From Bordetella parapertussis (lineage in GTDB: Bacteria; Pseudomonadota; Gammaproteobacteria; Burkholderiales; Burkholderiaceae_B): 13,019 bases of DNA. Shown here piece after piece: positions 1,955-13,019 of the stretch. Every line of letters starts with the position of its first letter. Within the stretch, counting starts at the first letter, position 1. The notes below the pieces were generated by a model. The model saw nothing but the letters and a program-made list of their open reading frames with translations, had not been told where the DNA came from and did no database searches. Location of the stretch: assembly GCA_945883615.1 (NCBI GenBank), contig CAMCYB010000049.1, positions 1-13,019 of the forward strand, read 5' to 3'. The position numbers and the translations under genes are program-made.

Positions 1955-3802
1955 ATGAATGCTCCCGCTTACGTACGTCATGAAAATTTAAAACAATGGG
2001 TCGCTCAAATCGCAGCCAAAACAAAACCCGCTCAAGTGGTTTGGTGTGATGGTTCGCAAGAAGAGTATGACCGCTTATGCGCTGTTATGGTGCAAGCGGG
2101 CACATTACATAAACTTAACCCCCAAAAACGGCCTAATTCTTATTTGGCGCGCTCAGTGCCTGACGATGTCGCACGTGTAGAAGACAGAACCTTTATTTGC
2201 ACACCTGAAGAAAAAGATGCGGGCCCGACCAATAACTGGAAGTCGCCTGCTGAAATGCGTCAAACACTTGATGGTTTGTTTGAAGGCTGTATGGCGGGTC
2301 GAACGATGTATGTTGTGCCCTTTTCGATGGGCCCAATGGGTTCACCCATTGCTCAAATTGGTATTGAATTAAGTGATTCACCTTATGTGGTCGTCAATAT
2401 GCGCATGATGACTCGCATGGGTAAAGCTGTTTATGACGTGTTGGGTGAGCAGGGTGAATATGTGCCTTGTGTTCATAGCGTAGGCGTGCCCTTAGCGCCA
2501 GGTCAAACAGACGTGGCGTGGCCTTGTAACAACACCAAATATATCGTGCATTTCCCCCAAACCCGTGAAATTTGGTCTTTCGGATCTGGCTACGGTGGTA
2601 ATGCACTGCTAGGTAAAAAATGTTTTGCTCTGCGTATTGCTTCTAATATGGGTCGCGATGCCGCCAAACAGTCTTCAGCGGGGTGGTTAGCCGAGCACAT
2701 GCTCATTTTGGGTGTTGAAACCCCTTCAGGCAAAAAATATCATATTGCTGCGGCGTTTCCATCGGCATGCGGAAAAACCAACTTTGCGATGCTCATACCC
2801 CCGACAAGTTTAACTGCTCAGGGTTGGAAAATCACCACCATTGGTGACGATATCGCCTGGATCAAGCCCGACTCAAAAGGCCAATTGCGGGCCATTAACC
2901 CCGAGGCGGGTTATTTCGGTGTCGCGCCCGGTACGAACACAATTTCAAACCCTAATTGCATGGCAACATTAAAAGACAATGTTATTTTTACCAACGTTGC
3001 CTTGACAGATGACGGCGATGTTTGGTGGGAAGGTTTAACCAAAACGCCGCCTGCCCATTGCATCGATTGGCGAGGTCACGACTGGACGCCAGAGCTGGCA
3101 AAAGAGAAAGGCGTTAAAGCAGCTCACCCCAATGCACGATTTACGGTTAGTGCCATTCAAAACCCGGTCCTTGACGAAGCATGGGATGACCCGGCAGGTG
3201 TGGTGATCGATGCCTTTATTTTTGGTGGCCGTCGTTCGACAACAGTACCGCTTGTGACTGAAGCGCGTAATTGGCAAGAGGGTGTTTACATGGCAGCCAC
3301 CATGGGCTCTGAAACAACCGCTGCAGCCACGGGGCAATTAGGCGTGGTGCGCCGTGACCCGTTTGCGATGTTGCCATTTTGTGGCTACAACATGGCTGAC
3401 TATTTTACCCATTGGCTTGATTTAGGGAAACGCCTCGAATCTCTCGGTGGCAAACTACCGAGTATATTTTGTGTGAACTGGTTTCGTACCGATGAAAACG
3501 GCCAGTTCGTTTGGCCCGGTTTTAGTGAAAACGCACGCGTGTTAAAATGGATGGTGTCTCGTATTGAGCAACAAGCTCAGGGTGTTGAACACGTATTCGG
3601 TGTCAGCCCAAGATACCAAGACCTAGACTGGACAGGGCTTGATTTCTCTGAGTCATTGTTTGATCGCATCACATCAATTGATACTGAAGCGTGGCGTCAA
3701 GAATTTGCCTTACACGATGCGTTATTTGAGCAGTTGTCATACGGGCTGCCAACAAGCTTACGTGAAATACGCATAGATTTAGAGGCTAAATTACTCGCTT
3801 AG
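1955..3802 (+). CDS. pckG: Phosphoenolpyruvate carboxykinase (GTP)
   Basis: A 615-residue cytosolic enzyme that interconverts oxaloacetate + GTP and PEP + CO2 + GDP, linking the TCA cycle to gluconeogenesis. Full length for the GTP-dependent family (about 600-620). Diagnostic motifs: the P-loop FPSACGKTN (268-276) with its characteristic reactive cysteine C272, the kinase-2 segment GDDIAWIK (297-304) that binds the metal, [16 protein letters not shown] (312-327), the guanine-site region [14 protein letters not shown] (421-434) and [20 protein letters not shown] (508-527) near the C-terminus. The ATP-type enzyme family lacks these. The start at ATG 1955 fits family N-termini; the ribosome site is weak (CAGG about nine bases upstream). 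Its TAG lies 12 bp inside the convergent minus-strand gene. No other gluconeogenic gene is adjacent. Confidence 0.97.
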
Positions 3803-4120
3803 AACATCGCAAGCAGCTGCCAAGACCGCTTGGTCTTGGCAAAGAAAAACAGCGATTTCATCTGGGTTCATCAACTCTAGAATGTCTAGTATTGATTCAC
3901 CTACATCATTCAGTAAGTCTAGAGACGAAACATGCATCGGTTGCCCACGATCAAAAATAGATTGTGGCAACCGATCAGGCAAAATGCTGGGGTCAGCTGG
4001 GCCGACAAGTAATAACACGGTGAAATGTGCTGCTTCGCTGGTCACCTCGAACTCAATCACGTTTGAGGTTAAAGCGTCGCTCGTGGTTTCAACACGTTTT
4101 ATTTCTAAGCCCGGAATCAT
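3791..4120 (-). CDS. Hypothetical 109-residue protein encoded directly after rdgC
   Basis: I do not recognise this protein. It has 109 residues, is acidic overall, and has no signal peptide, membrane helix or cysteine cluster. The N-terminal half reads like alternating beta strands ([13 protein letters not shown]), the C-terminal half like amphipathic helices ([19 protein letters not shown]). It begins 2 bp after the rdgC stop (TAA AG ATG), with its ribosome site (AGGTGA) inside the end of rdgC, which strongly suggests translational coupling and makes it a real gene. Its last codons carry a perfect hairpin and its end overlaps the pckG stop region by 12 bp. A role connected with RdgC or recombination is only a guess from position. 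Confidence 0.72.
3818..3841. terminator. Perfect 10-bp hairpin at a convergent gene junction
   Basis: TGCCAAGACC (3818-3827), a GCTT loop and GGTCTTGGCA (3832-3841) form a perfect 10-bp stem that begins 15 bp after the pckG stop codon. It is well placed to end or protect the 3' end of the pckG transcript. On neither strand is it followed by a T-run (plus strand continues AAGAAAAAC), so it is not a classical Rho-independent terminator. The whole hairpin lies inside the coding region of the opposing 109-residue gene. Confidence 0.45.
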
Positions 4121-4122
4121 CT

Positions 4123-5025
4123 TTATTCACCTGTGGTGTCGTTAAGTGCATGAAGCAGCGCTTCAAGCATGGGTATGACCTCAGCGGTCATTAATGCAAA
4201 ATCAGCATCAAGCTTTTCTTGCGCATCAAGCGATGCACCACTTTCATGCTCGTCTAAAATATCAAGTGCTTGTAGGCGTTTTATATCAAACTGATCGGTC
4301 AACACAAAACTCAATCGATCTTGCCAAGTTAAACCCAAACGGCTGCACTGGTGCCCTGCTTCGATATGGCGTTCAATCTCATCGGGGGTGATGTCGTGGC
4401 GAACATAGCGAACCATACCGGCCTGTTGACCTGAAGACTGCCATTGGCAATCTTGCTCAAGGGTAAGACCCGCCGGCGGTGCTTGTTCAAGCATCCATTT
4501 TGTCATCATGGCGCTAGGCGAGTGTGCGAGTATTAGGGGTTCAATGGGGTAGGGGTATAGTGATTTACCCATTAAAGTTAAAACGTGCTCAGCCCCGCCC
4601 GTTGACGCGGTGTCAATGACAAACCAATGGTTAATCGGGTCAAGCCACACGTGAATGTCGCGTGCAATACTAAATGCACGTGGGGTTAATTCGTCAATAG
4701 CTTGTTCTTTAAGTTCTTTAATTTGTTTGCGGCCAGGCTTAAAACCTTGTTGCGCTTCAAGATCAATGGCGCGTTCGCGCACAACTGTTTGCACAACTGA
4801 GCTTGGCAATAGTTTTTTTTCTATGCGCAATGCGCATAAAAGTTGGGCGCCAACTTGAACGACTAAAGCATTATGCCCCGCGCGGGGAGTCACCCAACCC
4901 ATACTGGGTTCTTTAGAACCCGATTGGCTAACAAAGGCATGGGCTTGCAATTGACTTTCTAGTGTTTCGCGCGTGTAAGAACCCTCGCGCGCAAGACGAA
5001 AAAGCTTAAGATTTTTGAACCACAT
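4123..5025 (-). CDS. rdgC: Recombination-associated protein RdgC
   Basis: Encodes 300 residues, essentially the length of E. coli RdgC (303). RdgC is a nucleoid-associated, ring-forming dimer that binds double-stranded DNA without sequence specificity and restrains RecA-promoted strand exchange. Family hallmarks are the N-terminal MWFKNLKLFRL, GWVTPRAGHNALVV, the LRIEKKLLPSSVV segment, the basic stretch KPGRKQIKELKEQAIDEL and the FSIARDIHVWLDP segment. A GTG at 5034 would add three residues, but ATG 5025 gives the canonical MWFKNL start and has a weak GAG about eight bases upstream, so I use it. The hypothetical 109-residue gene follows 2 bp downstream. An 83-bp gap with a small hairpin separates it from tetR upstream. 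Confidence 0.95.
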   Translation of the reverse strand: MWFKNLKLFRLAREGSYTRETLESQLQAHAFVSQSGSKEPSMGWVTPRAGHNALVVQVGAQLLCALRIEKKLLPSSVVQTVVRERAIDLEAQQGFKPGRKQIKELKEQAIDELTPRAFSIARDIHVWLDPINHWFVIDTASTGGAEHVLTLMGKSLYPYPIEPLILAHSPSAMMTKWMLEQAPPAGLTLEQDCQWQSSGQQAGMVRYVRHDITPDEIERHIEAGHQCSRLGLTWQDRLSFVLTDQFDIKRLQALDILDEHESGASLDAQEKLDADFALMTAEVIPMLEALLHALNDTTGE

Positions 5026-5051
5026 ATTGAACACTCAAAGTCTGACATTCT

Positions 5052-5108: not shown

Positions 5109-5738
5109 TTATTTTGTTACGGATGAGGTTAAACCATCAAAACAAGTGTGAACCAATAAGTCAATAATGTCTCGATCAGTGAAAGCACCCCCCATTTTTA
5201 GAAAATCAGCCACAGGGTCGCAGGCGCGAGCAAAAATTGAGTACAAAATAACTTCAGCGGGTAACGCTGCCGATAGTTGACCTTTTTCCTGTGCATCGAG
5301 TATCCATTCACCTAGCTGAGTGGTTAAGTCTTGTAACCGCTCAATGTAAGGCGGGTGACCCAGCAAGGCTTGTTGAATACTTGAGCGTGTTGAGGGTAAA
5401 TAAGGCATTTCGCCTTGAATATGAAGCGTAATACCCCAACGAACAATCATTTTTAACTTGTCTTTAGACATCAGGTGAGCGGGCACTCGGTTCACTTCAG
5501 CCAGCGTGTGGTCTAGTAACCGTGTCATTGATGCAGCAGCCAAAGACTCTTTTGACGGAAAATGTTTGTAAAGACTTGCTTTGGCAATGCCCACATCGGC
5601 AGCGACCTCGTCCATAGTCATGAGGTCAAAACCTTTTTGCGACAGCAACCGATTTACGGAATCGAGAATGGCGTTTTCACGAAATTGCATTTGCTGTTGT
5701 TTAAAGCTTGTTTTTTTAGGTGCGATAGTGGCATTCAT
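5109..5738 (-). CDS. TetR/AcrR-family transcriptional regulator
   Basis: A 209-residue one-component regulator, normal for TetR proteins (about 190-220). The N-terminal DNA-binding domain is clear: helix 1 around residues 20-35, then MTMDEVAADVGIAKASLYKHF (residues 40-60), in which VAADVGIAKASLYKHF is the helix-turn-helix, followed by PSKESLAAA. The C-terminal ligand/dimer domain is divergent, so the ligand cannot be read. The gene diverges from the lipid-modification operon across 111 bp that carries inverted half-sites over both -10 elements, which points to autoregulation and control of the operon. Given the operon, a fatty acid, acyl-CoA or lipid-oxidation product is a plausible ligand (inference). 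The bases before ATG 5738 are pyrimidine-rich (CCCTTTCCCTTTTT), so no Shine-Dalgarno is present. Confidence 0.93.
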   Translation of the reverse strand: MNATIAPKKTSFKQQQMQFRENAILDSVNRLLSQKGFDLMTMDEVAADVGIAKASLYKHFPSKESLAAASMTRLLDHTLAEVNRVPAHLMSKDKLKMIVRWGITLHIQGEMPYLPSTRSSIQQALLGHPPYIERLQDLTTQLGEWILDAQEKGQLSAALPAEVILYSIFARACDPVADFLKMGGAFTDRDIIDLLVHTCFDGLTSSVTK

Positions 5739-5769
5739 AAAAAGGGAAAGGGTCTCATTTTATTTCTGG

Positions 5770-5810
5770 ATAGTATATTAAACGACTAAAAAGTATTTTT
5801 TGTGTACTAT
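5770..5810. promoter_or_regulatory. Candidate TetR operator: inverted half-sites in the divergent promoter region
   Basis: ATAGTATAT at 5770-5778 on the plus strand faces ATAGTACAC on the minus strand (plus-strand GTGTACTAT, 5802-5810). A third related copy, AAAGTATTT, lies at 5791-5799. The outer two half-sites overlap the -10 hexamers of the two divergent promoters, as expected for a TetR repressor controlling itself and the neighbouring operon. The half-sites are imperfect and the region is AT-rich, so chance similarity cannot be excluded. Confidence 0.4.
5772..5777 (-). promoter_or_regulatory. -10 element (TATACT) for tetR
   Basis: The minus-strand hexamer TATACT lies 33 bp before the tetR ATG and within the left operator half-site. 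The -35 region on this strand is only A-rich (AAAAAT at 17 bp spacing). The mirror-image placement relative to the plus-strand TATAAT supports, but does not prove, a divergent promoter pair. Confidence 0.4.
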
Positions 5811-5813
5811 AAT
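5808..5813 (+). promoter_or_regulatory. -10 element (TATAAT) for the lipid-modification operon
   Basis: A perfect TATAAT lies 36 bp before the ATG of the first operon gene and shares bases with the right operator half-site. No TTGACA-like -35 is found 16-18 bp upstream (the bases are ACTAAA/CTAAAA/GACTAA), so the promoter may be weak or need activation. The predicted leader is about 30 bases, AU-rich, and without a Shine-Dalgarno. Confidence 0.5.
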
Positions 5814-5849
5814 GATTGAATTTTAAACTAATTTTAATTTTTTGTACCT

Positions 5850-6386
5850 ATGCATGATTCAAATGTAGCAATCTCGATTAAACCAACCCACGGTGCCGAT
5901 TGGCCGGTTGTGGGCGAAGGTGTTTTCTCTTGGAGCGTGTTTCGATTCTATCGTGCACGACTACTAAGTGAAACCGGTCTGTTTGACCCTGCTCAGCCTT
6001 ATCGTCTTGAAGTTCACTACCTCAGACGCTTGACGGCCAGTCAAATTGCAAATGTGACGTGTGCTGAAATCAAGCGTCTAGCCCTATTAGGGGTTCAATG
6101 TTGTGTTGACCTACCGGCTGAGAAAATTGACAGTTGGGCACAAAAACTCGAACAATTTTTACCTGACGTGACGCTAAATGATCAGTTGATCGGGGTGTTT
6201 AAGCCCGGCGAAGGGGTCAGGTTTTTTGATGCCAAACAAGAATTGGGTCTCATCAATGAAAGTGCTTTTGCAAAAGCATTTACAGCTATCTGGCTTGACC
6301 CGCAAACGCGTGCCCCAAAATTACGGTCTGAGTTATTAAAAAACTCCCGTCATCAAGGTGTTGAAGTGGGCAAGTCTTCACCATGA
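5850..6386 (+). CDS. Chalcone-isomerase-like protein 1, no signal peptide
   Basis: A 178-residue protein of the bacterial chalcone-isomerase-like family (Chalcone_3 type), first gene of the operon. It shares its architecture with the exported paralogue at 9765-10307: V-G-x-G near the N-terminus, an FxFYRARL strand, TGLFDPAQPYRLEVHYLR (SGLFSPNQPFALQLVYAR in the paralogue), DQLIGVFKPGEGVRFF, and the C-terminal AFTAIWLDPQTRAPKLRSEL. The bacterial family is not known to act on flavonoids; the fold is also used for fatty-acid binding in plant FAP proteins, which fits a lipid role (inference). Unlike most relatives it has no hydrophobic leader and should be cytoplasmic. ATG 5850 has no Shine-Dalgarno. 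The stop overlaps the next start as ATGA. Confidence 0.8.
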   Translation: MHDSNVAISIKPTHGADWPVVGEGVFSWSVFRFYRARLLSETGLFDPAQPYRLEVHYLRRLTASQIANVTCAEIKRLALLGVQCCVDLPAEKIDSWAQKLEQFLPDVTLNDQLIGVFKPGEGVRFFDAKQELGLINESAFAKAFTAIWLDPQTRAPKLRSELLKNSRHQGVEVGKSSP

Positions 6387-7732
6387 CACTTGAAAAAAAA
6401 CGCATTGCAGTTGTGGGTTCTGGTATTTCAGGCTTGTCAGCTGCATGGTTGCTGCAATTTAAAAATGAGGTTGTACTGTTTGAGTCGGGCGCTTATTTTG
6501 GTGGTCATGCCAATACTGTTGACGTCACCCTTGAGGGCAAAACTTACCCTGTCGATACAGGGTTTTTAGTACTCAATGAACTCACTTACCCCAATCTGCT
6601 TGCCCTCTTTAAAAGTTTAGACGTTCAAACCCATGCTAGCCAGATGACCTTTGGCGTGTCAATTGAAAGCCCTGATGTAGAGTGGGCGGGTACCTCGTTA
6701 GCGACTGTTTTTGCGCAAAAACGTAACATTTTTAGGCCTGCATTTTTAAGTATGCTTTCTGACATCGTGCGCTTTAACCGCCTTGCCCAAACTTATCTTG
6801 ACCAATCGTTGGTCGACCCCATTACGCTTGGTCAATTGTTGCAGCGTCATCGTTATGGCCAATCGATGCAAGACTGGTATTTATTACCGATGGCCGCTGC
6901 AATTTGGTCATCATCAGTGCGTGATATTTTGGAATTTCCAGCTGCAACGTTTTTACGCTTTTGTATCAATCATCGTTTATTGCAAGTGAGCCAACGCCCT
7001 CAGTGGCGAACCGTTTTGGGGGGCTCGCGCACGTATGTGAAAGCAATTATTGATCAGTTAGCCGATGCCAGGCTTCAAACGCCGGTAAAAACAATTAAAC
7101 GTTTTGATGACTATGTACTCGTTAATGAAGAACGCTTCGATGCGGTTGTGATGGCTTGTCATGCCCCCACAGCGCTTAAGTTGCTTGACGCTCACCCCGA
7201 TGAAACAGCCGCCCTGGGTGGGTTTCGGTATCAAACTAATTATGCTGTTTTACATACAGATAAAAATTTATTACCTCGCCGTAAGTCAGTTTGGTCAGCC
7301 TGGAATTATGCGATGGCAGGGGGTGATGAACAAGATCGGCCCACCTCAGTGTCATACCTGATTAATCTATTACAACCCTTACCGTTTAAAACCCCCGTGA
7401 TTGTCAGTTTAAATTCACATAGGCAACCAGACCCTGCTCACGTTATACAAACCTTTAAGTATGAGCACCCCGTCATGGATTCTGCAGCACTGGTTGCGCA
7501 ACAATCATTACCCCGCTTGCAAGGCCAACGCCGCACGTGGTTTTGTGGGGCATGGTGTGGTTATGGGTTTCACGAAGACGGCTTGAAATCTGCCATGGCA
7601 GTTGCGCAAGCGTTTGGGGTCAGGGCGCCTTGGGTTGAAGCAGAACCTGCCTCACCTGTCGCCTCATCCATTCTTGTACCACCTGCAGCAATTAAAACTG
7701 ATTCGCCACAACAGGCCGTACATGCAGAATAG
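6383..7732 (+). CDS. FAD-dependent oxidoreductase (COG2907 / amine-oxidase-like)
   Basis: A 449-residue flavoprotein. The N-terminal Rossmann dinucleotide site is VVGSGISGLSAAW (10-22), with the ribose-binding glutamate E34 in VLFES, then GGHANT (40-45) and the family signature PVDTGFLVLNE (56-66). The C-terminal FAD-contacting segment WFCGAWCGYGFHEDGLKSA starts at residue 386. This family resembles phytoene desaturases and amine oxidases and occurs repeatedly next to DUF1365 and CFA-synthase-like genes. A role as a desaturase or oxidase of a methylated phospholipid acyl chain is inferred by analogy with the Rhodobacter furan fatty acid pathway; the substrate is not visible in the sequence. 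The start overlaps the preceding stop by 4 bp, and the next gene starts 11 bp before its own stop. Confidence 0.9.
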   Translation: MTLEKKRIAVVGSGISGLSAAWLLQFKNEVVLFESGAYFGGHANTVDVTLEGKTYPVDTGFLVLNELTYPNLLALFKSLDVQTHASQMTFGVSIESPDVEWAGTSLATVFAQKRNIFRPAFLSMLSDIVRFNRLAQTYLDQSLVDPITLGQLLQRHRYGQSMQDWYLLPMAAAIWSSSVRDILEFPAATFLRFCINHRLLQVSQRPQWRTVLGGSRTYVKAIIDQLADARLQTPVKTIKRFDDYVLVNEERFDAVVMACHAPTALKLLDAHPDETAALGGFRYQTNYAVLHTDKNLLPRRKSVWSAWNYAMAGGDEQDRPTSVSYLINLLQPLPFKTPVIVSLNSHRQPDPAHVIQTFKYEHPVMDSAALVAQQSLPRLQGQRRTWFCGAWCGYGFHEDGLKSAMAVAQAFGVRAPWVEAEPASPVASSILVPPAAIKTDSPQQAVHAE

Positions 7733-8552
7733 CTTGCAACAAACGATGCCAAATATAAAATTGGGTGATGCCATTGTGATGCATGCACGCCTAAGACCTT
7801 TTGTGCATCGATTTGTTTACCGAGTGTTTTGCTTGCAAATTAGGCTTGATAACCCAGAGGGGTTGAGCAAACTAAACACATGGTTGTTTGGTGTCAATAA
7901 AAAACGCGCGGTTAGTTTTATGAATGCTGACCACGGGGCACGCGATGGCTCAGATTTAATGGTTTGGTTGAAACAAACCTTACATTCCTCTGGGCACGAG
8001 TTGCCTGAGGGTCAAGTATGGTTGCAATGCTTTCCTCGTATTTTGGGGTATGTGTTTAACCCTGTGAGTTTTTGGATGTTGCATGACCAAAAAGGCCAAT
8101 TATGTCTATTGTTAGCTGAGGTCAATAATACCTTCGGACAAAAACATCAGTATGTTTTGTCAAATGCAAAAGGTGGGGGGTTGCAGGCAGACTGTCCGCT
8201 CATTTGTGAAAAAGTTTTTCATGTGTCACCTTTTTGTCCGGTACAAGGCCAGTACAAGTTTGCCATTCAGCAAACATCAAAGGGTGAAAAAATTTCTATT
8301 AATTATTTTGACGATGTCACCGTTGAGCAAGCACTTGTCTTAACAGCCATCACCACTCAGTTTCAAACCTTCACCACAGCAGCGCTACTCAGACGTTTGC
8401 TACGTATGCCCTTGATGACATTTGGTGTTGTGGCTCGAATTCATTGGCAAGCATTTAAATTATGGCGCCAAGGTGCCAAGTTTCATTCAACCCCACCGCT
8501 TCCTAAACATACTGTGACATCAAACAAAGGGGTCAACCTTGAGCACGACTGA
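7722..8552 (+). CDS. DUF1365 family protein
   Basis: A 276-residue protein of the DUF1365 family (typical length about 240-280). Conserved blocks: MHARLRPFVHRFVYRVF (20-36), FPRILGYVFNPVSFWMLHD (104-122) and LAEVNNTFGQKHQYVL (131-146). The biochemical function of the family is unknown; its genes are strongly linked with COG2907 flavoproteins and CFA-synthase-like methyltransferases, as here, suggesting a shared lipid-modification step. I start at ATG 7722, which has CAGG seven bases upstream and overlaps the flavoprotein gene by 11 bp. The frame is open back to 7602, but that extension carries no family similarity. ATG 7746 is possible but has no ribosome site. The end overlaps the next gene by 14 bp. 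Confidence 0.9.
   Translation: MQNSLQQTMPNIKLGDAIVMHARLRPFVHRFVYRVFCLQIRLDNPEGLSKLNTWLFGVNKKRAVSFMNADHGARDGSDLMVWLKQTLHSSGHELPEGQVWLQCFPRILGYVFNPVSFWMLHDQKGQLCLLLAEVNNTFGQKHQYVLSNAKGGGLQADCPLICEKVFHVSPFCPVQGQYKFAIQQTSKGEKISINYFDDVTVEQALVLTAITTQFQTFTTAALLRRLLRMPLMTFGVVARIHWQAFKLWRQGAKFHSTPPLPKHTVTSNKGVNLEHD
8526..8532 (+). promoter_or_regulatory. Shine-Dalgarno that selects a TTG start
   Basis: AAAGGGG lies six bases before TTG 8539 and inside the end of the DUF1365 gene. It is the strongest reason for placing the methyltransferase start at TTG 8539 rather than at the first in-frame ATG, 18 codons later. Confidence 0.7.
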
Positions 8553-9789
8553 TCGCGAACAGACTCTTGCCGTGACAAGCCATCGCTCGATCATGGCTCG
8601 TATTTTATTGGCTGAACTCAGTCAAACGCAGGAAGGTCTGATTCACTTTACCGACCCAGATGGTCAAACTTATGCGTTTGGGCAACCCAATGCTGACTTA
8701 AAAGCAGACCTTCATATTTTAGATTGGCGAGCCGCTTCGTTGATGATTCGTCAAGGTGATGTTGGTTTTGCCCTTGCGTTGAGCCGCGGCTGGTTAAAAA
8801 CACCCGATATGCGCAGCTTGTTTCTCATTGCCTTGCGTAATGAAAACCATGTTGACACCGTTCATGGCCGTTGGTGGCCACTATTATTAAAACGTTTAGT
8901 GCATTGGGTATTACGTGACAACAGTCGTCGTGGCAGCCGTAAAAATATTATTAGTCATTACGACTTAGGTAATCACTTTTATGAATTGTGGCTCGACCCC
9001 ACCATGAGCTATTCGTCTGCGTGGTTTGGTCGAGCCGACAAACGACCCGACCATGAAGCCGCAATTTCAACAGACGCACTAGTTGTCGGTCAACAAGCTA
9101 AATATGACCATATCATTGACACGTTGCAGGCTAAAACAGGCGATCGCGTTTTAGAAATCGGCTGTGGTTGGGGTGGTTTTGCGCAAAGAGCGGCAGAGCG
9201 CGGTCTTCATGTCTATGGCGTGACGATTTCAGATGCTCAATTAAATTGGGCACAAGAGAAAATATCAAAGTCAGGGTTTAGCCAGCAGGTTGAACTGGTT
9301 CGACAAGATTATCGAGATATTCAAGGGCAGTTTGACCACATTGTTTCAATTGAAATGTTTGAAGCAGTTGGCATGCGGCATTGGACGACATATTTTGATA
9401 CGCTAAAAAAATGTCTTAAACCTGGTGGTCGTGCCGTTTTACAAGTAATCGATATGGCTGATCAATATTTTGATCATTACAAAAAACATACCGATTTTAT
9501 TCAGCAGTTTATTTTCCCTGGTGGTATGTTGCCAAGCCCTTTGCATATGCGTCAGGGTGCTGCAAAAGCGGGTTTACATGTTGAGTCATCAATAAGCTTT
9601 GGTTTCGATTATGCCCGTACTTTACGAACTTGGCTTGAACGCTTTGACGCTCAAATCATCGCAATAAGAGCACAAGGTTTTAGCGAGTCGTTTGTTCAAC
9701 TTTGGCGTATGTATCTTGTTTACTGCGAAGTTGCCTTTCTTGAATCTCGAACGGATGTCAAACAATGGACACTTTCTCGACCCCTATAA
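8539..9789 (+). CDS. Cyclopropane-fatty-acyl-phospholipid synthase family SAM methyltransferase
   Basis: A 416-residue enzyme (E. coli Cfa has 382) that should transfer a methyl or methylene group from SAM to a double bond in a membrane phospholipid acyl chain. Visible features: HYDLGNHFYELWLDPTMSYS (140-159), the SAM-binding loop LEIGCGWGG (205-213), YGVTIS (226-231), IEMFEAVG (271-278), KPGGRAVLQ (294-302) and FIFPGGMLPS (324-333). Aligned by eye with E. coli Cfa, the bicarbonate-site residues are partly changed: Glu239, Ile268 and Tyr317 correspond to E275, I304 and Y358, but Cys139 is Ser160 and His266 is Gln302. Gln at that place also occurs in plant cyclopropane synthases, so activity is likely, but the product could be a cyclopropane or a mid-chain methylated acyl chain (as with Rhodobacter UfaM). 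The start is TTG, supported by AAAGGGG. The end overlaps the next gene by 25 bp. Confidence 0.93.
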   Translation: MSTTDREQTLAVTSHRSIMARILLAELSQTQEGLIHFTDPDGQTYAFGQPNADLKADLHILDWRAASLMIRQGDVGFALALSRGWLKTPDMRSLFLIALRNENHVDTVHGRWWPLLLKRLVHWVLRDNSRRGSRKNIISHYDLGNHFYELWLDPTMSYSSAWFGRADKRPDHEAAISTDALVVGQQAKYDHIIDTLQAKTGDRVLEIGCGWGGFAQRAAERGLHVYGVTISDAQLNWAQEKISKSGFSQQVELVRQDYRDIQGQFDHIVSIEMFEAVGMRHWTTYFDTLKKCLKPGGRAVLQVIDMADQYFDHYKKHTDFIQQFIFPGGMLPSPLHMRQGAAKAGLHVESSISFGFDYARTLRTWLERFDAQIIAIRAQGFSESFVQLWRMYLVYCEVAFLESRTDVKQWTLSRPL

Positions 9790-10307
9790 AATTATTTTTA
9801 ATTAAATACCTGACACTGGGTTGTTTGTTATTTGCTCTTGGTGCAACACCTGTGCAGGCCAGTTGGCAAACACTTTTGCCCAATGCCAAACCGGTTGGTT
9901 CAGGTGAGCTGCGTCGGTTCGGTTTTCTAATTTATGATGCACAGTTTTTCACCTCATCTGGGCTTTTCAGCCCAAATCAACCGTTTGCCTTGCAACTTGT
10001 TTATGCCCGAACCATTGCAAAAAATCGAATCGTTACGGCCTCTCTTGATGAGTTAGAAAATTTAGGTTTTGATGTTGGTGCCAACCCTCAATGGCGCGCC
10101 GAACTTGAAAAGGTTTTGGCTGATGTGAAAGAAGGCGACACACTGACGGGCGTATATTTGCCAGGTCAGGGCGCAGTCTTTTTCTTAAATGATCAACTCA
10201 CCGGGCGTCTTGATGACTCGTTGGCACAAGCTTTTTTCTCAATATGGTTTGATCCGCGAACCAGCGAACCTGAGTTAAGAACTGCGCTCATTGGCGAGTC
10301 AAAGTAA
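9765..10307 (+). CDS. Chalcone-isomerase-like protein 2, exported
   Basis: A 180-residue protein with an N-terminal signal peptide: basic start (KLFLIKY), hydrophobic core LTLGCLLFALGAT and a likely cut after PVQA, before SWQTLL (about residue 32-33). The mature part is a chalcone-isomerase-like domain (Chalcone_3 type) with GSGELRRFGFLIYDAQFF, SGLFSPNQPFALQLVYAR, LTGVYLPGQGAVFF and the C-terminal SIWFDPRTSEPELRTALIG. It is a paralogue of the first operon gene but predicted periplasmic. In many proteobacteria a single exported copy accompanies the CFA/DUF1365/DUF3833 set; having both forms suggests one acts on each side of the inner membrane (inference). Start ATG 9765 has a weak GGA nine bases upstream. 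The stop and the MFS start share one base (TAATG). Confidence 0.85.
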   Translation: MDTFSTPIKLFLIKYLTLGCLLFALGATPVQASWQTLLPNAKPVGSGELRRFGFLIYDAQFFTSSGLFSPNQPFALQLVYARTIAKNRIVTASLDELENLGFDVGANPQWRAELEKVLADVKEGDTLTGVYLPGQGAVFFLNDQLTGRLDDSLAQAFFSIWFDPRTSEPELRTALIGESK

Positions 10308-11557
10308 TGCTGACTTCAAGTGCAATGGCTCGGTACAGCGTGCTGTCATTGCCTTTGGCCATGGCCATGTTACCAGTCTACATGATTGCGCCTAAATTTT
10401 ACGCTGATAACTTGGGGGTGAGTTTGTCTGCCCTCGGTATCTGTTTATTAATTGTGCGCTTGTTCGATACGATTCAAGACCCACTGATTGGGCGTTGGGT
10501 TGATACACTCAGCCGCTACCGTCACGGTTGGTCAATCTTAATCACCGTTGCTGCGGTGTTGTTAGCAATTGGTTTTATTGCATTGTTTATGCCCAGTGTG
10601 ACAGGCGAAGTGCCTTTGCTGATTTGGTTGTCTTTGAGCCTAGTGGTGGTTTACACCGCACACAGTCTCATCAATATTTGCTATTTGGCATGGGGCGCAC
10701 GTTTGACCGATGTGGTTGAAGGCCGGGCACGTGTCACGGCTTGGCGTGAGGCGGTTGGTGTAGTGGGGGTTGTATTGGCCTCAGTATTGCCCGCCTATTG
10801 GGCGAGTACACAGGGTGCTTTAACAGGTTATGCCTGGTTTGCGTATTGCTTTGTTGTGATTTTGTTGGTGACCACATTTATTACCTTAAAGTTTGCACCC
10901 CGCCCTGCAACCGTTGTTTTGCCAAATCATTCAAACTGGAAAACACCCCTTGCAGACAAGGCCGTCAGGCGTTTGTATGTCTTTTATTTTTTTAATGCGA
11001 CCTCAGTTGCCTTGCCGGCAACGCTGATTTTGTTTTATGTTGACGACGTATTGCAAACCCCAGACCTCACTGGTTTATTTTTAGCTGTTTATTTTTTATC
11101 TGGCTTGTTGACGCTGCCGTTATGGGTCAAATTGGCTGACCGTGTGACTAAAGTGAGGGCGTGGGCGTTGGGCGCGATCGTGGCTAGTTTTGCTTTGGTT
11201 TGGGCAGCCACTTTAGGGCAGGGCGATGTTTGGGCCTACGCTACGATTTGTGCCTTTGCGGGTGCTGCTTTAGGCGCTGATTTAGCTTTGCCACCAGCCA
11301 TGTTAGCTGATGCCATTCCACCTCAACAACGATCAAGTACAGGTTTATATTTTGGTGTTTGGGCCTTACTTGCAAAGTTTTCATTAGCGATTGCTGCAGG
11401 TGTTTCACTACCAACACTCGCTTGGTTAGGTTATCAACCAGGCAACCCCACTACGGCTGCATCATTACCCATTTGGTATGCCGTTTTACCCATTTCTTTC
11501 AAGTTATGTGCACTACTTGTGATCAAACCTTGGCGCTCAAGTTATGTCACACCTTAA
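10307..11557 (+). CDS. MFS transporter, GPH/MFS_2-like
   Basis: A 416-residue inner-membrane protein with about 11-12 hydrophobic helices. The N-terminus has the features of the glycoside-pentoside-hexuronide:cation symporter/MFS_2 family: LPVYMIAPKFYADNLGVS (22-39) and RLFDTIQDPLIGRWVD (51-66), the latter being the family form of the MFS loop 2-3 motif. The second half carries ALPPAMLADAIPPQQRSS (from about residue 326), matching the family's helix 8-9 region. Members with this operon context are generally annotated as sugar symporters, but no sugar gene is present here; MFS_2 proteins also include lipid transporters, so movement of a lipid or its precursor is a reasonable guess (inference). 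The gene is coupled to the previous one by TAATG, and the lipoprotein gene starts 22 bp after its stop. Confidence 0.87.
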   Translation: MLTSSAMARYSVLSLPLAMAMLPVYMIAPKFYADNLGVSLSALGICLLIVRLFDTIQDPLIGRWVDTLSRYRHGWSILITVAAVLLAIGFIALFMPSVTGEVPLLIWLSLSLVVVYTAHSLINICYLAWGARLTDVVEGRARVTAWREAVGVVGVVLASVLPAYWASTQGALTGYAWFAYCFVVILLVTTFITLKFAPRPATVVLPNHSNWKTPLADKAVRRLYVFYFFNATSVALPATLILFYVDDVLQTPDLTGLFLAVYFLSGLLTLPLWVKLADRVTKVRAWALGAIVASFALVWAATLGQGDVWAYATICAFAGAALGADLALPPAMLADAIPPQQRSSTGLYFGVWALLAKFSLAIAAGVSLPTLAWLGYQPGNPTTAASLPIWYAVLPISFKLCALLVIKPWRSSYVTP

Positions 11558-11564
11558 TACGTTT

Positions 11565-11571
11565 AAAGGAG
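11565..11571 (+). promoter_or_regulatory. Shine-Dalgarno that selects a GTG start
   Basis: AAAGGAG lies eight bases before GTG 11580. It shows that the lipoprotein gene starts at GTG 11580 and not at the upstream in-frame ATG 11544, which would add 12 residues before the signal peptide and overlap the MFS gene. Confidence 0.8.
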
Positions 11572-11579
11572 TTTTTATC

Positions 11580-12128
11580 GTGAAATTTAAAGCCCTGATT
11601 GCAAGTATCTCAGCAGCCCTATTGACCGCTTGTGGTAGCGTTGACGTTGAAACTTACGCTAAACAAACGCCTGTGCTTGAGTTGCATCGCTATTTTGATG
11701 GCACCCTTGATGCCTGGGGTATTTTCCAAAAACGCAATGGCGAGTTGGTGCGACGCTTTCACGTTGAAATTATTGGAACGTGGAAGAGTGCTGATGAAGG
11801 TGAGCTTGACGAATACTTTACTTACGATGACGGCGAAAAACAACGCCGCGTCTGGACACTTAAACGTCAACCTGACGGTACTTGGCACGGCACTGCCGAT
11901 GATGTCAATGGTATTGCAATTGGGCGCGTAGCGGGCAATGCACTGCATTGGAAATACATTTTAAAGCTGCCCGTTGATGGCAAAGTTTACGACGTGAACT
12001 TTGATGACTGGATGTGGCAACTCGATGATCAAAGCATGATGAACCGGTCTGTGATGTCTAAGTTCGGTTTTGATTTGGGCGAAGTGACGTTGTTTTTTAA
12101 GAAACGACCTGAGACCAAAACGCAATGA
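11580..12128 (+). CDS. DUF3833 family lipoprotein
   Basis: A 182-residue predicted lipoprotein. From the GTG start the sequence is a classical lipoprotein signal: MKFKALIASISAALLTAC, with lipobox LTAC at residues 15-18 and Cys18 as the lipid-anchored residue. The mature part matches the DUF3833 family in length and in the blocks LELHRYFDGTLDAWGIFQKRNG split around residues 32-53, VEIIGTW, and YDVNFDDWMWQLDDQ near the C-terminus. Its composition suggests a beta-rich, lipocalin-like fold. No biochemical function is established for DUF3833. With Gly at +2 after the Cys it is likely sorted to the outer membrane, where it could bind or carry a modified lipid between membranes (inference). The stop overlaps the next start as ATGA. 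Confidence 0.87.
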   Translation: MKFKALIASISAALLTACGSVDVETYAKQTPVLELHRYFDGTLDAWGIFQKRNGELVRRFHVEIIGTWKSADEGELDEYFTYDDGEKQRRVWTLKRQPDGTWHGTADDVNGIAIGRVAGNALHWKYILKLPVDGKVYDVNFDDWMWQLDDQSMMNRSVMSKFGFDLGEVTLFFKKRPETKTQ

Positions 12129-12907
12129 TATTTAAACCCTTAAATACGCCCCTTGAAGACTGGTCGGGTTGTCGAGTATGGCTGGTTGGGGCTTCCAGTG
12201 GCATTGGTGCCGCCTTGGCGCAAGACTTGTTGGCTCGGGGTGCGCATGTCGTGGTTTCAGCGCGTCGTGAAAGTACATTAAAAGACGTTGTTGCAGATTA
12301 CCCCAATGGGCACGTGCATGCTTTCGATGTGATGCAAACAGCTGACTGGCCTGTTGCACTTGAGCAGGTTGAGCAAATATTGGGAGAAATCGATTTAGTT
12401 GTGTTGGGCGCTGCGCGTTATGACCCACAACACAGCTGGGAAATTGATCTCGCCACCGTTCAAGCCAGCTACGAATTAAACGTGATCAGTATGTACACAG
12501 GGTTGCATACTTTGGTGCCATACTTGCTTAAAAAACCGAACCGGGGTGTGGCTATTATTAGCAGCATAAGTGGCTATACCGGTTTACCCAGAGCCATGGT
12601 TTATGGCGCAACCAAAGCGGCATTGCAAAATCTAACTGAAACGCTGTATTTTGAATTGGCCCCCAAAGGGGTGTCGGTTTATTTAATTAACCCAGGTTTT
12701 GTCAAAACACCGATGACGGCTGCAAATGACTTTCACATGCCATCTTTAATCACACCACAACAAGCTGCCCAAGAGATTAGGGCGGGTTTTGAGAAAGGGC
12801 AGTTTGAAATTGCGTTTCCCAAAGGGTTTGCAACGTCTCTCAGATGGGTGGCACGCTTGCCTTATAAACTACGCTTTTGGCTTTTACACCGCATGACAAA
12901 CATGTAA
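12125..12907 (+). CDS. Short-chain dehydrogenase/reductase (SDR)
   Basis: A 260-residue classical SDR. The NAD(P)-binding motif is GASSGIG (22-28); SARRES after the second strand, with paired arginines, favours NADP(H). LGAAR (94-98) replaces the NNAG stretch, N119 is the helix-4 asparagine, and the catalytic triad is S147, Y160 and K164 in SISGYTGLPRAMVYGATKAAL split over 147-167. PGFVKT (190-195) follows. It should oxidise a hydroxyl or reduce a carbonyl on a lipid-type substrate; the substrate is not evident. It is the last gene of the operon, overlaps the DUF3833 gene by 4 bp, and ends 24 bp before the heptanucleotide repeat array. No terminator hairpin with a T-run is visible in that gap. 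Confidence 0.93.
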   Translation: MIFKPLNTPLEDWSGCRVWLVGASSGIGAALAQDLLARGAHVVVSARRESTLKDVVADYPNGHVHAFDVMQTADWPVALEQVEQILGEIDLVVLGAARYDPQHSWEIDLATVQASYELNVISMYTGLHTLVPYLLKKPNRGVAIISSISGYTGLPRAMVYGATKAALQNLTETLYFELAPKGVSVYLINPGFVKTPMTAANDFHMPSLITPQQAAQEIRAGFEKGQFEIAFPKGFATSLRWVARLPYKLRFWLLHRMTNM

Positions 12908-12931: not shown

Positions 12932-13019
12932 AAAGTTCAAAGTTCAAAGTTCAAAGTTCAAAGTTCAAAGTTCAAAGTTCAAAGTTCAAAGTTCAAAGTT
13001 CAAAGTTCAAAGTTCAAAG
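12932..13019. repeat. Perfect tandem heptanucleotide repeat (AAAGTTC)n
   Basis: From 12932 to the window edge the sequence is AAAGTTC repeated 12 times plus four further bases, with no mismatch, and continues beyond the window. A single array of perfect units indicates recent expansion by slipped-strand replication. Because 7 is not a multiple of 3, every plus-strand frame reads the same open seven-codon cycle (K V Q S S K F), while every minus-strand frame meets TGA once per 21 bases. It is not a CRISPR: no spacers are present. Confidence 0.97.

Follow-up and report, generated by a model that had tools for sequence, protein, structure and literature searches.

What does the eight-gene block on contig CAMCYB010000049.1 of Bordetella parapertussis make, and what controls it? 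The contig, a 13,019-nt stretch to which we refer as the window, carries eight co-directional genes on the + strand (the block under study, 5850-12907) opposite a divergent TetR-family gene (5109..5738, - strand), all of them present in the list of open reading frames. A preliminary description had read the block as an acyl-chain-modification operon related to the Rhodobacter furan fatty acid (FuFA) genes, with a TetR gene in place of a sigma-E/ChrR pair, and had suggested that the pathway also moves its product. The relation and the regulator are borne out; the movement of the product is not supported. From sequence comparison, we conclude that the block is very probably a FuFA operon under TetR control, acting along the lines of the mechanism proposed below. 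The chemistry of the pathway is known from elsewhere. The type of regulator and a chalcone isomerase (CHI)-fold protein, CHI1, set this operon apart, and a residue signature in its methyltransferase and an operator-like motif beside its regulator are testable additions.

Three homologues encoded in a row carry the assignment. They are a UfaD-type flavin adenine dinucleotide (FAD) desaturase, COG2907-like (6383..7732, +), a UfaO-type DUF1365 protein (7722..8552, +), and a UfaM-type, CMAS-family S-adenosylmethionine methyltransferase with a TTG start (8539..9789, +). According to the available portion of PMC7380195, which describes ufaM, ufaD and ufaO in Rhodobacter sphaeroides and Rhodopseudomonas palustris, UfaM methylates cis-vaccenate within phospholipids, the product of UfaD is 11Me-10t,12t-18:2, and UfaO makes the furan ring with O2. 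DUF1365, which the preliminary description had left without a biochemical role, thus has a published one. We take the functions of UfaD and UfaO in the window from that source and from homology, and by the same homology 11Me-18:1, 11Me-18:2 and 9M5-FuFA are the predicted products of the operon. The families proposed for the remaining genes are each supported by Pfam as well. The matches in gene order are Chalcone_3, Amino_oxidase/NAD_binding_8, DUF1365, CMAS, Chalcone_3, MFS_2, DUF3833 and adh_short, followed by TetR_N for the regulator (52.7 bits against a cut-off of 24 for its helix-turn-helix).

The block order recurs, whole or partial, in many proteobacterial loci and annotated records, so the block is not a chance arrangement. 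A UfaO scan using one genome per species gave 127 relatives, from which we kept 80 loci. Using profiles built from these loci (above 90 bits, anywhere in the locus), we find UfaM in 61 of the 80, one of them (L063) a Cfa-type gene outside the cluster, MFS in 65, DUF3833 in 59, CHI2 in 43, a SnoaL-like protein in 40, CHI1 in 7 and SDR in 71, counts that are lowered by contig ends and, for SDR, perhaps raised by unrelated paralogues. The nearest loci among the 80 are those of "Alcaligenaceae bacterium UBA6179" (L001, UfaO 90% identical) and of an uncultured Alcaligenaceae bin (L010, 76%). Another contig of the L001 genome (G001) has a TetR, a CHI1 and a UfaD that are 97%, 84% and 94% identical to those of the window.

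Comparison with known systems shows which parts are shared. The window order ufaD-ufaO-MFS-DUF3833-SDR is kept in many Rhodobacteraceae loci, where, unlike in the window, we see no TetR or CHI1. The ufaM gene of R. sphaeroides is located elsewhere (RSP2144 versus RSP1091-1087; PMC7380195, available portion, and PMC12089945), whereas in the window it is inside the block. The clusters of Azoarcus pAZKH and Cupriavidus pinatubonensis p2 are FAD-DUF1365-CFA-CHI-MFS-DUF3833-SDR-NTF2, an order identical to that of the window. Both lack CHI1; the Azoarcus regulator is a MerR with B12-binding domains, whereas the Cupriavidus cluster shares the motif described below with the window and has a homologous TetR (39%). 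A scrambled variant of the operon occurs on a plasmid of Cupriavidus sp. USMAHM13 (L201), where TetR-ufaD-ufaO is followed by CHI, lipocalin, DUF2878, two CFA-type genes and DUF1295. Many other Burkholderiales (L013, L014 and L016 among them) have a glutathione peroxidase gene upstream of ufaD, with a + strand match above 150 bits in 33/80 loci; its identity was confirmed by Pfam for one example, it fits a lipid-peroxide theme, and the gene is absent from the window.

The TetR gene travels with CHI1. We searched the 268 genomes of the G004 family for the CHI1 protein and obtained matches in 83, many of them single, weaker ones that by our reading are of the CHI2 type. In all 20 of the best loci, TetR adjoins CHI1 and UfaD, with RdgC beyond TetR. 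At 20 further places TetR is next to CHI1 in 19, and none was found in L156. With L007, this gives the TetR-CHI1 pairing in 40 of the 268 genomes. Seen from the regulator, a search of a plasmid collection (72,556 records, E 1e-15) finds four TetR relatives, all in Cupriavidus and all beside ufaD.

The intergenic region between the two genes carries a recurrent motif. We collected 41 distinct TetR-CHI1 regions including that of the window, after removing duplicates (the regions of L002-L006 and L010 repeat those of L117-L155) and leaving out L156, in which no TetR was found. The pattern [AT]CTNNNN[AG]GT has 91 sites in these regions, against a mean of 7.0 and a maximum of 14 in 200 shuffles. 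At least two copies are found in 32/41, copies are most often spaced by 20 (27 pairs) or 40 (10 pairs), and a spacing of 20 or 21 occurs in 25/41 regions where 0.02 are expected. In the window, copy 1 (TCTGGATAGT, 5765..5774, +) and copy 2 (ACTAAAAAGT, 5785..5794, +) are 20 bp apart; this two-copy form (5765-5794) has a single match in the window and no match in 200 shuffles. A third, degenerate copy (ACTATAATGA, 5806..5815, +) falls outside the pattern and overlaps a TATAAT at 5808-5813. Allowing one mismatch, the three-copy form is found in 10 of 14 genomes, always just before the CHI1 match and nowhere else, and the backward version of the motif, used as a control, has no match in the 14 genomes. 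One of the four genomes lacking a three-copy match, G143, was in this set although a TetR-CHI1 place is not known there. The Cupriavidus plasmids provide a check on sequences outside the motif selection: ACTNNNNAGT is present in all four TetR-ufaD intergenic regions, one of which has two copies exactly 20 bp apart. TetR thus seems to be dedicated to this operon, and a predicted operator-like motif is conserved near its own gene. Copy 2 sits at the expected -35 place and the TATAAT lies over the degenerate copy 3, an arrangement that suggests repression.

CHI1 (5850..6386, +), the first gene of the operon, encodes a CHI-fold protein with no signal peptide. At the place of the catalytic Arg of the chalcone isomerase LXGXGXR motif, no Arg is found at or beside the position in 62/62 CHI1 proteins. 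The second family member, CHI2 (9765..10307, +), is an exported CHI-like protein, and it too has no Arg at the position itself (0/43), with one within one residue in 37/43. Proteins P0063-P0066 are signal-bearing and of the CHI2 type, not CHI1. By analogy with the CHI-fold fatty-acid-binding protein (FAP), CHI1 may bind fatty acids. CHI1, CHI2 or both could instead be hemoproteins, as the yeast CHI-fold proteins Aim18p and Aim46p are, and assist UfaO in its O2 chemistry instead of binding lipid, which we regard as unlikely.

A second question is whether a FuFA operon with a local TetR still answers to light or singlet oxygen. In R. sphaeroides, FuFA goes up on deletion of chrR (PMC7380195, available portion), where the window has TetR instead. 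A Pseudomonas cluster with UfaM, an FAD oxidoreductase and an SDR near a LitR-type gene is light-induced, and its repressor is a LitR-type MerR freed by a blue-light receptor, as far as the available part of PMC9758184 describes it. Blue light induces a putative CFA synthase gene in Vibrio cholerae (PMC5241685, available part). A sigma-E/ChrR or LitR system elsewhere in the genome could run the window operon in trans, with TetR as a local modifier. Regulators of these kinds adjoin FuFA loci more often than TetR does: within about 4 kb upstream, with domains checked in representatives, the 80 loci have sigma-E with ChrR in 17, ChrR alone in 2 and MerR with B12-binding domains in 15, that is 34/80 against 7 for TetR, with no regulator in 27 and a contig edge in 12. 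A loose match to the promoter pattern TGATC-N15-20-CGTA is also found in 2/7 TetR loci (L004 and L006).

The window and its relatives speak against control in trans. As the preliminary description had stated for the window, no sigma-E/ChrR pair is adjacent to the operon, neither among the window genes nor in any of the 7 TetR loci. The promoter pattern has no match in window positions 5401-5950, a result of limited sensitivity since the pattern finds only 7/19 ChrR loci. A ChrR protein query has no match in any of the 10 related genomes G001-G010, with sensitivity again limited because the query comes from a gammaproteobacterial bin; elsewhere it matches G015 (E 1e-36) and, weakly, G018, with no match in G013 and G014. 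A LitR-like query is matched over all or nearly all of its length in G009, G013 and G014, and has no full-length match in the nine TetR-type genomes (G001-G008 and G010), where only matches of about 60-85 residues occur, in G002-G005. We consider that control in trans is improbable.

The methyltransferase bears on the choice between furan and cyclopropane chemistry. Aligned to the solved E. coli-type Cfa structure 6bqc, the window enzyme has S, E, A, Q, I and Y (S160/E275/A276/Q302/I304/Y358) at the columns of E. coli Cys139, Glu239, His240, His266, Ile268 and Tyr317, where 6bqc, read by eye, has C, E, H, H, I and Y. Cys139, Glu239, His266, Ile268 and Tyr317 are what we take to be the bicarbonate-binding residues of Cfa; in the window, Glu, Ile and Tyr of that set are retained, Cys is replaced by Ser and His266 by Gln. 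The fairest comparison is with enzymes chosen by position, namely the 58 of the 80 loci with a methyltransferase gene within 1.5 kb of ufaO, plus the window. Among these 59 ufaO-adjacent enzymes, 50 are SEAQIY, 6 are AEAQIY, one is SEAQI with the last position missing and two are readable only as S. Cys is absent from all 59 and both His from all 57 that are readable (Ser or Ala, Ala and Gln are found instead), and there is no counter-example to the signature in the set. Away from ufaO the picture changes. Counting identical sequences once, and reading 30 loci from a search of 18 genomes, we find 19 such enzymes, 15 of which are CEHHIY (14 from as many different genomes of the 18, and one from L063). 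The other four are SEAQIY; three are from Rhodobacteraceae genomes and one (L051) is divergent and located before ufaD. Two further sets, picked by similarity to UfaM and hence less fair as a test, agree: [SA]EAQIY is present in 120/120 among the protein matches listed, and in Alphaproteobacteria, where 73/142 genomes matched, all of the best 30 places are [SAG]EAQIY, and ufaD or ufaO is encoded at 25 of these loci. The plasmid copies are SEAQIY in Azoarcus and AEAQIY in Cupriavidus. Judged by signature and by adjacency to ufaO, the window enzyme is of the UfaM type, not Cfa. That the CMAS gene is an ordinary Cfa whose neighbours merely assist it in a cyclopropane fatty acid operon is highly improbable and, on the residue signature, we reject it: the CMAS Pfam match and the homology to solved Cfa enzymes would fit such an operon, but the enzyme falls under the curated NCBIfam Cfa cut-offs (at best 230.8 of 400 bits), its Cys/His/His are replaced, it adjoins UfaD and UfaO homologues, and 14/18 genomes have, among the loci read, the separate CEHHIY enzyme away from ufaO.

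Several points weigh against a TetR-repressed FuFA operon with a diagnostic signature and operator. The 91 motif sites were counted with a pattern picked after viewing these same regions, a single copy is all that 9 of the 41 have, and copy 3 of the window is degenerate. Three genomes with the TetR-CHI1 place, G001, G007 and G010, lack a match to the three-copy form, among them the two closest relatives, G001 and G010. An activating role of TetR, in place of repression, is also conceivable. As for the signature, its comparison set includes no experimentally tested UfaM by name, and Halomonas UfaM in E. coli, a host with its own Cfa, is reported with cyclic fatty acids plus 11-methyloctadec-12-enoate. 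Finally, Actinobacteria have a pair of enzymes for 10-methyl fatty acids, which we take to be TmsA and TmsB. As in the window, the pair consists of a Cfa-like methyltransferase and an FAD enzyme; it differs in that TmsB makes a methylene product, which is then reduced, and no ring, though it is described as retaining the bicarbonate site (PMC7791843, available part), so the bicarbonate site alone does not decide the product.

With these points in mind, the TetR-controlled FuFA operon would work as follows. UfaM would methylate C11 of cis-vaccenyl chains in existing phospholipids. With the Cfa-type bicarbonate site dismantled, and bicarbonate no longer available as a base close to the methyl being transferred, the cation would be quenched by losing a chain proton and not a proton of the new methyl, giving 11Me-12t-18:1 and no cyclopropane; the lost site may in this way explain the intact methyl in the product. 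UfaD, with FAD, would convert 11Me-12t-18:1 into 11Me-10t,12t-18:2, and UfaO with O2 would close the furan ring. CHI2, MFS, DUF3833, SDR and the SnoaL protein missing from the window would be accessory. The divergent TetR would act on ACTnnnnAGT-type sites about 20 bp apart that lie over the promoter, most likely repressing until an acyl-type ligand arrives, and the cytoplasmic CHI1 may bind an acyl chain or an intermediate. We offer the repression, the ligand and the role of CHI1 as hypotheses. A more specific version is speculative and rather unlikely: a self-gated membrane-lipid circuit in which the ligand of TetR is itself an acyl intermediate or product of FuFA synthesis, carried or buffered by CHI1, and in which TetR binds cooperatively to the array of operators spaced by 20 bp, so that FuFA is turned on by lipid state and not by light or singlet oxygen. 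Loss of the Cfa bicarbonate site would, in this version, have been the evolutionary step from a cyclopropane synthase to the entry enzyme of furan lipids.

The accessory genes complete the block. After CHI2 come an MFS_2 transporter (10307..11557, +), which scores under the NCBIfam GPH cut-off, a DUF3833 protein predicted to be a lipoprotein from its LTAC motif (11580..12128, +), and an SDR oxidoreductase (12125..12907, +). Adjacent genes overlap by 4 bases (CHI1/UfaD), 11 (UfaD/UfaO), 14 (UfaO/UfaM), 25 (UfaM/CHI2), 1 (CHI2/MFS) and 4 (DUF3833/SDR). The MFS/DUF3833 junction depends on the start of DUF3833: the ATG at 11544, also open, gives a 14-base overlap, and the GTG at 11580, which AAAGGAG precedes, leaves a 22-base gap. 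We prefer the GTG, so that six of the seven junctions overlap, as the preliminary description had it. In R. sphaeroides, the remaining genes of the ufaD-ufaO operon are RSP1087-1089, and their single deletions leave the fatty acid profile without detectable change, as stated in the available portion of PMC7380195. That RSP1087-1089 match SDR, DUF3833 and MFS is suggested by the lengths of two of the proteins (245 and 186 aa) and by the Rhodobacteraceae loci. A lipid export pathway is unsupported and we reject it; beyond the deletions, after ufaM only SDR is detected in L152, and none of the accessory proteins of the window in L155.

At its downstream end the block is probably incomplete. The eight genes are real, and the two closest relatives, like other loci, have a ninth, SnoaL_2, after SDR, so that it is expected past the window edge. 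Between SDR and the place of that gene, the window ends in a perfect tandem array of AAAGTTC x 12.6 (12932..13019) that runs past the edge, and this repeat may have caused the sequence to end at 13019. Three or more consecutive AAAGTTC units occur in none of the compared loci, including the close relatives L001 and L010. On the other side of the operon, minus-strand genes at 3791-5034 encode a presumably RdgC-like protein and a 109-aa protein of no assigned function, which adjoin TetR in many related loci; no functional link of either to the operon is evident.

Furan fatty acids, an unusual class of membrane lipid, are believed to shield membranes from damage. In the named records that we examined, their genes are annotated as members of the cyclopropane synthase family or as domains of unknown function, and with a residue signature to tell UfaM from Cfa, genomes could be re-annotated. 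The signature also offers a simple mutational test of what steers a single carbocation towards cyclopropane or methyl-alkene. If the operon has a TetR of its own, marked by the short conserved motif, FuFA synthesis would be controlled by something other than light, with a ligand that can be searched for directly, and the co-inherited CHI1 places the bacterial CHI-like proteins in a concrete pathway context.

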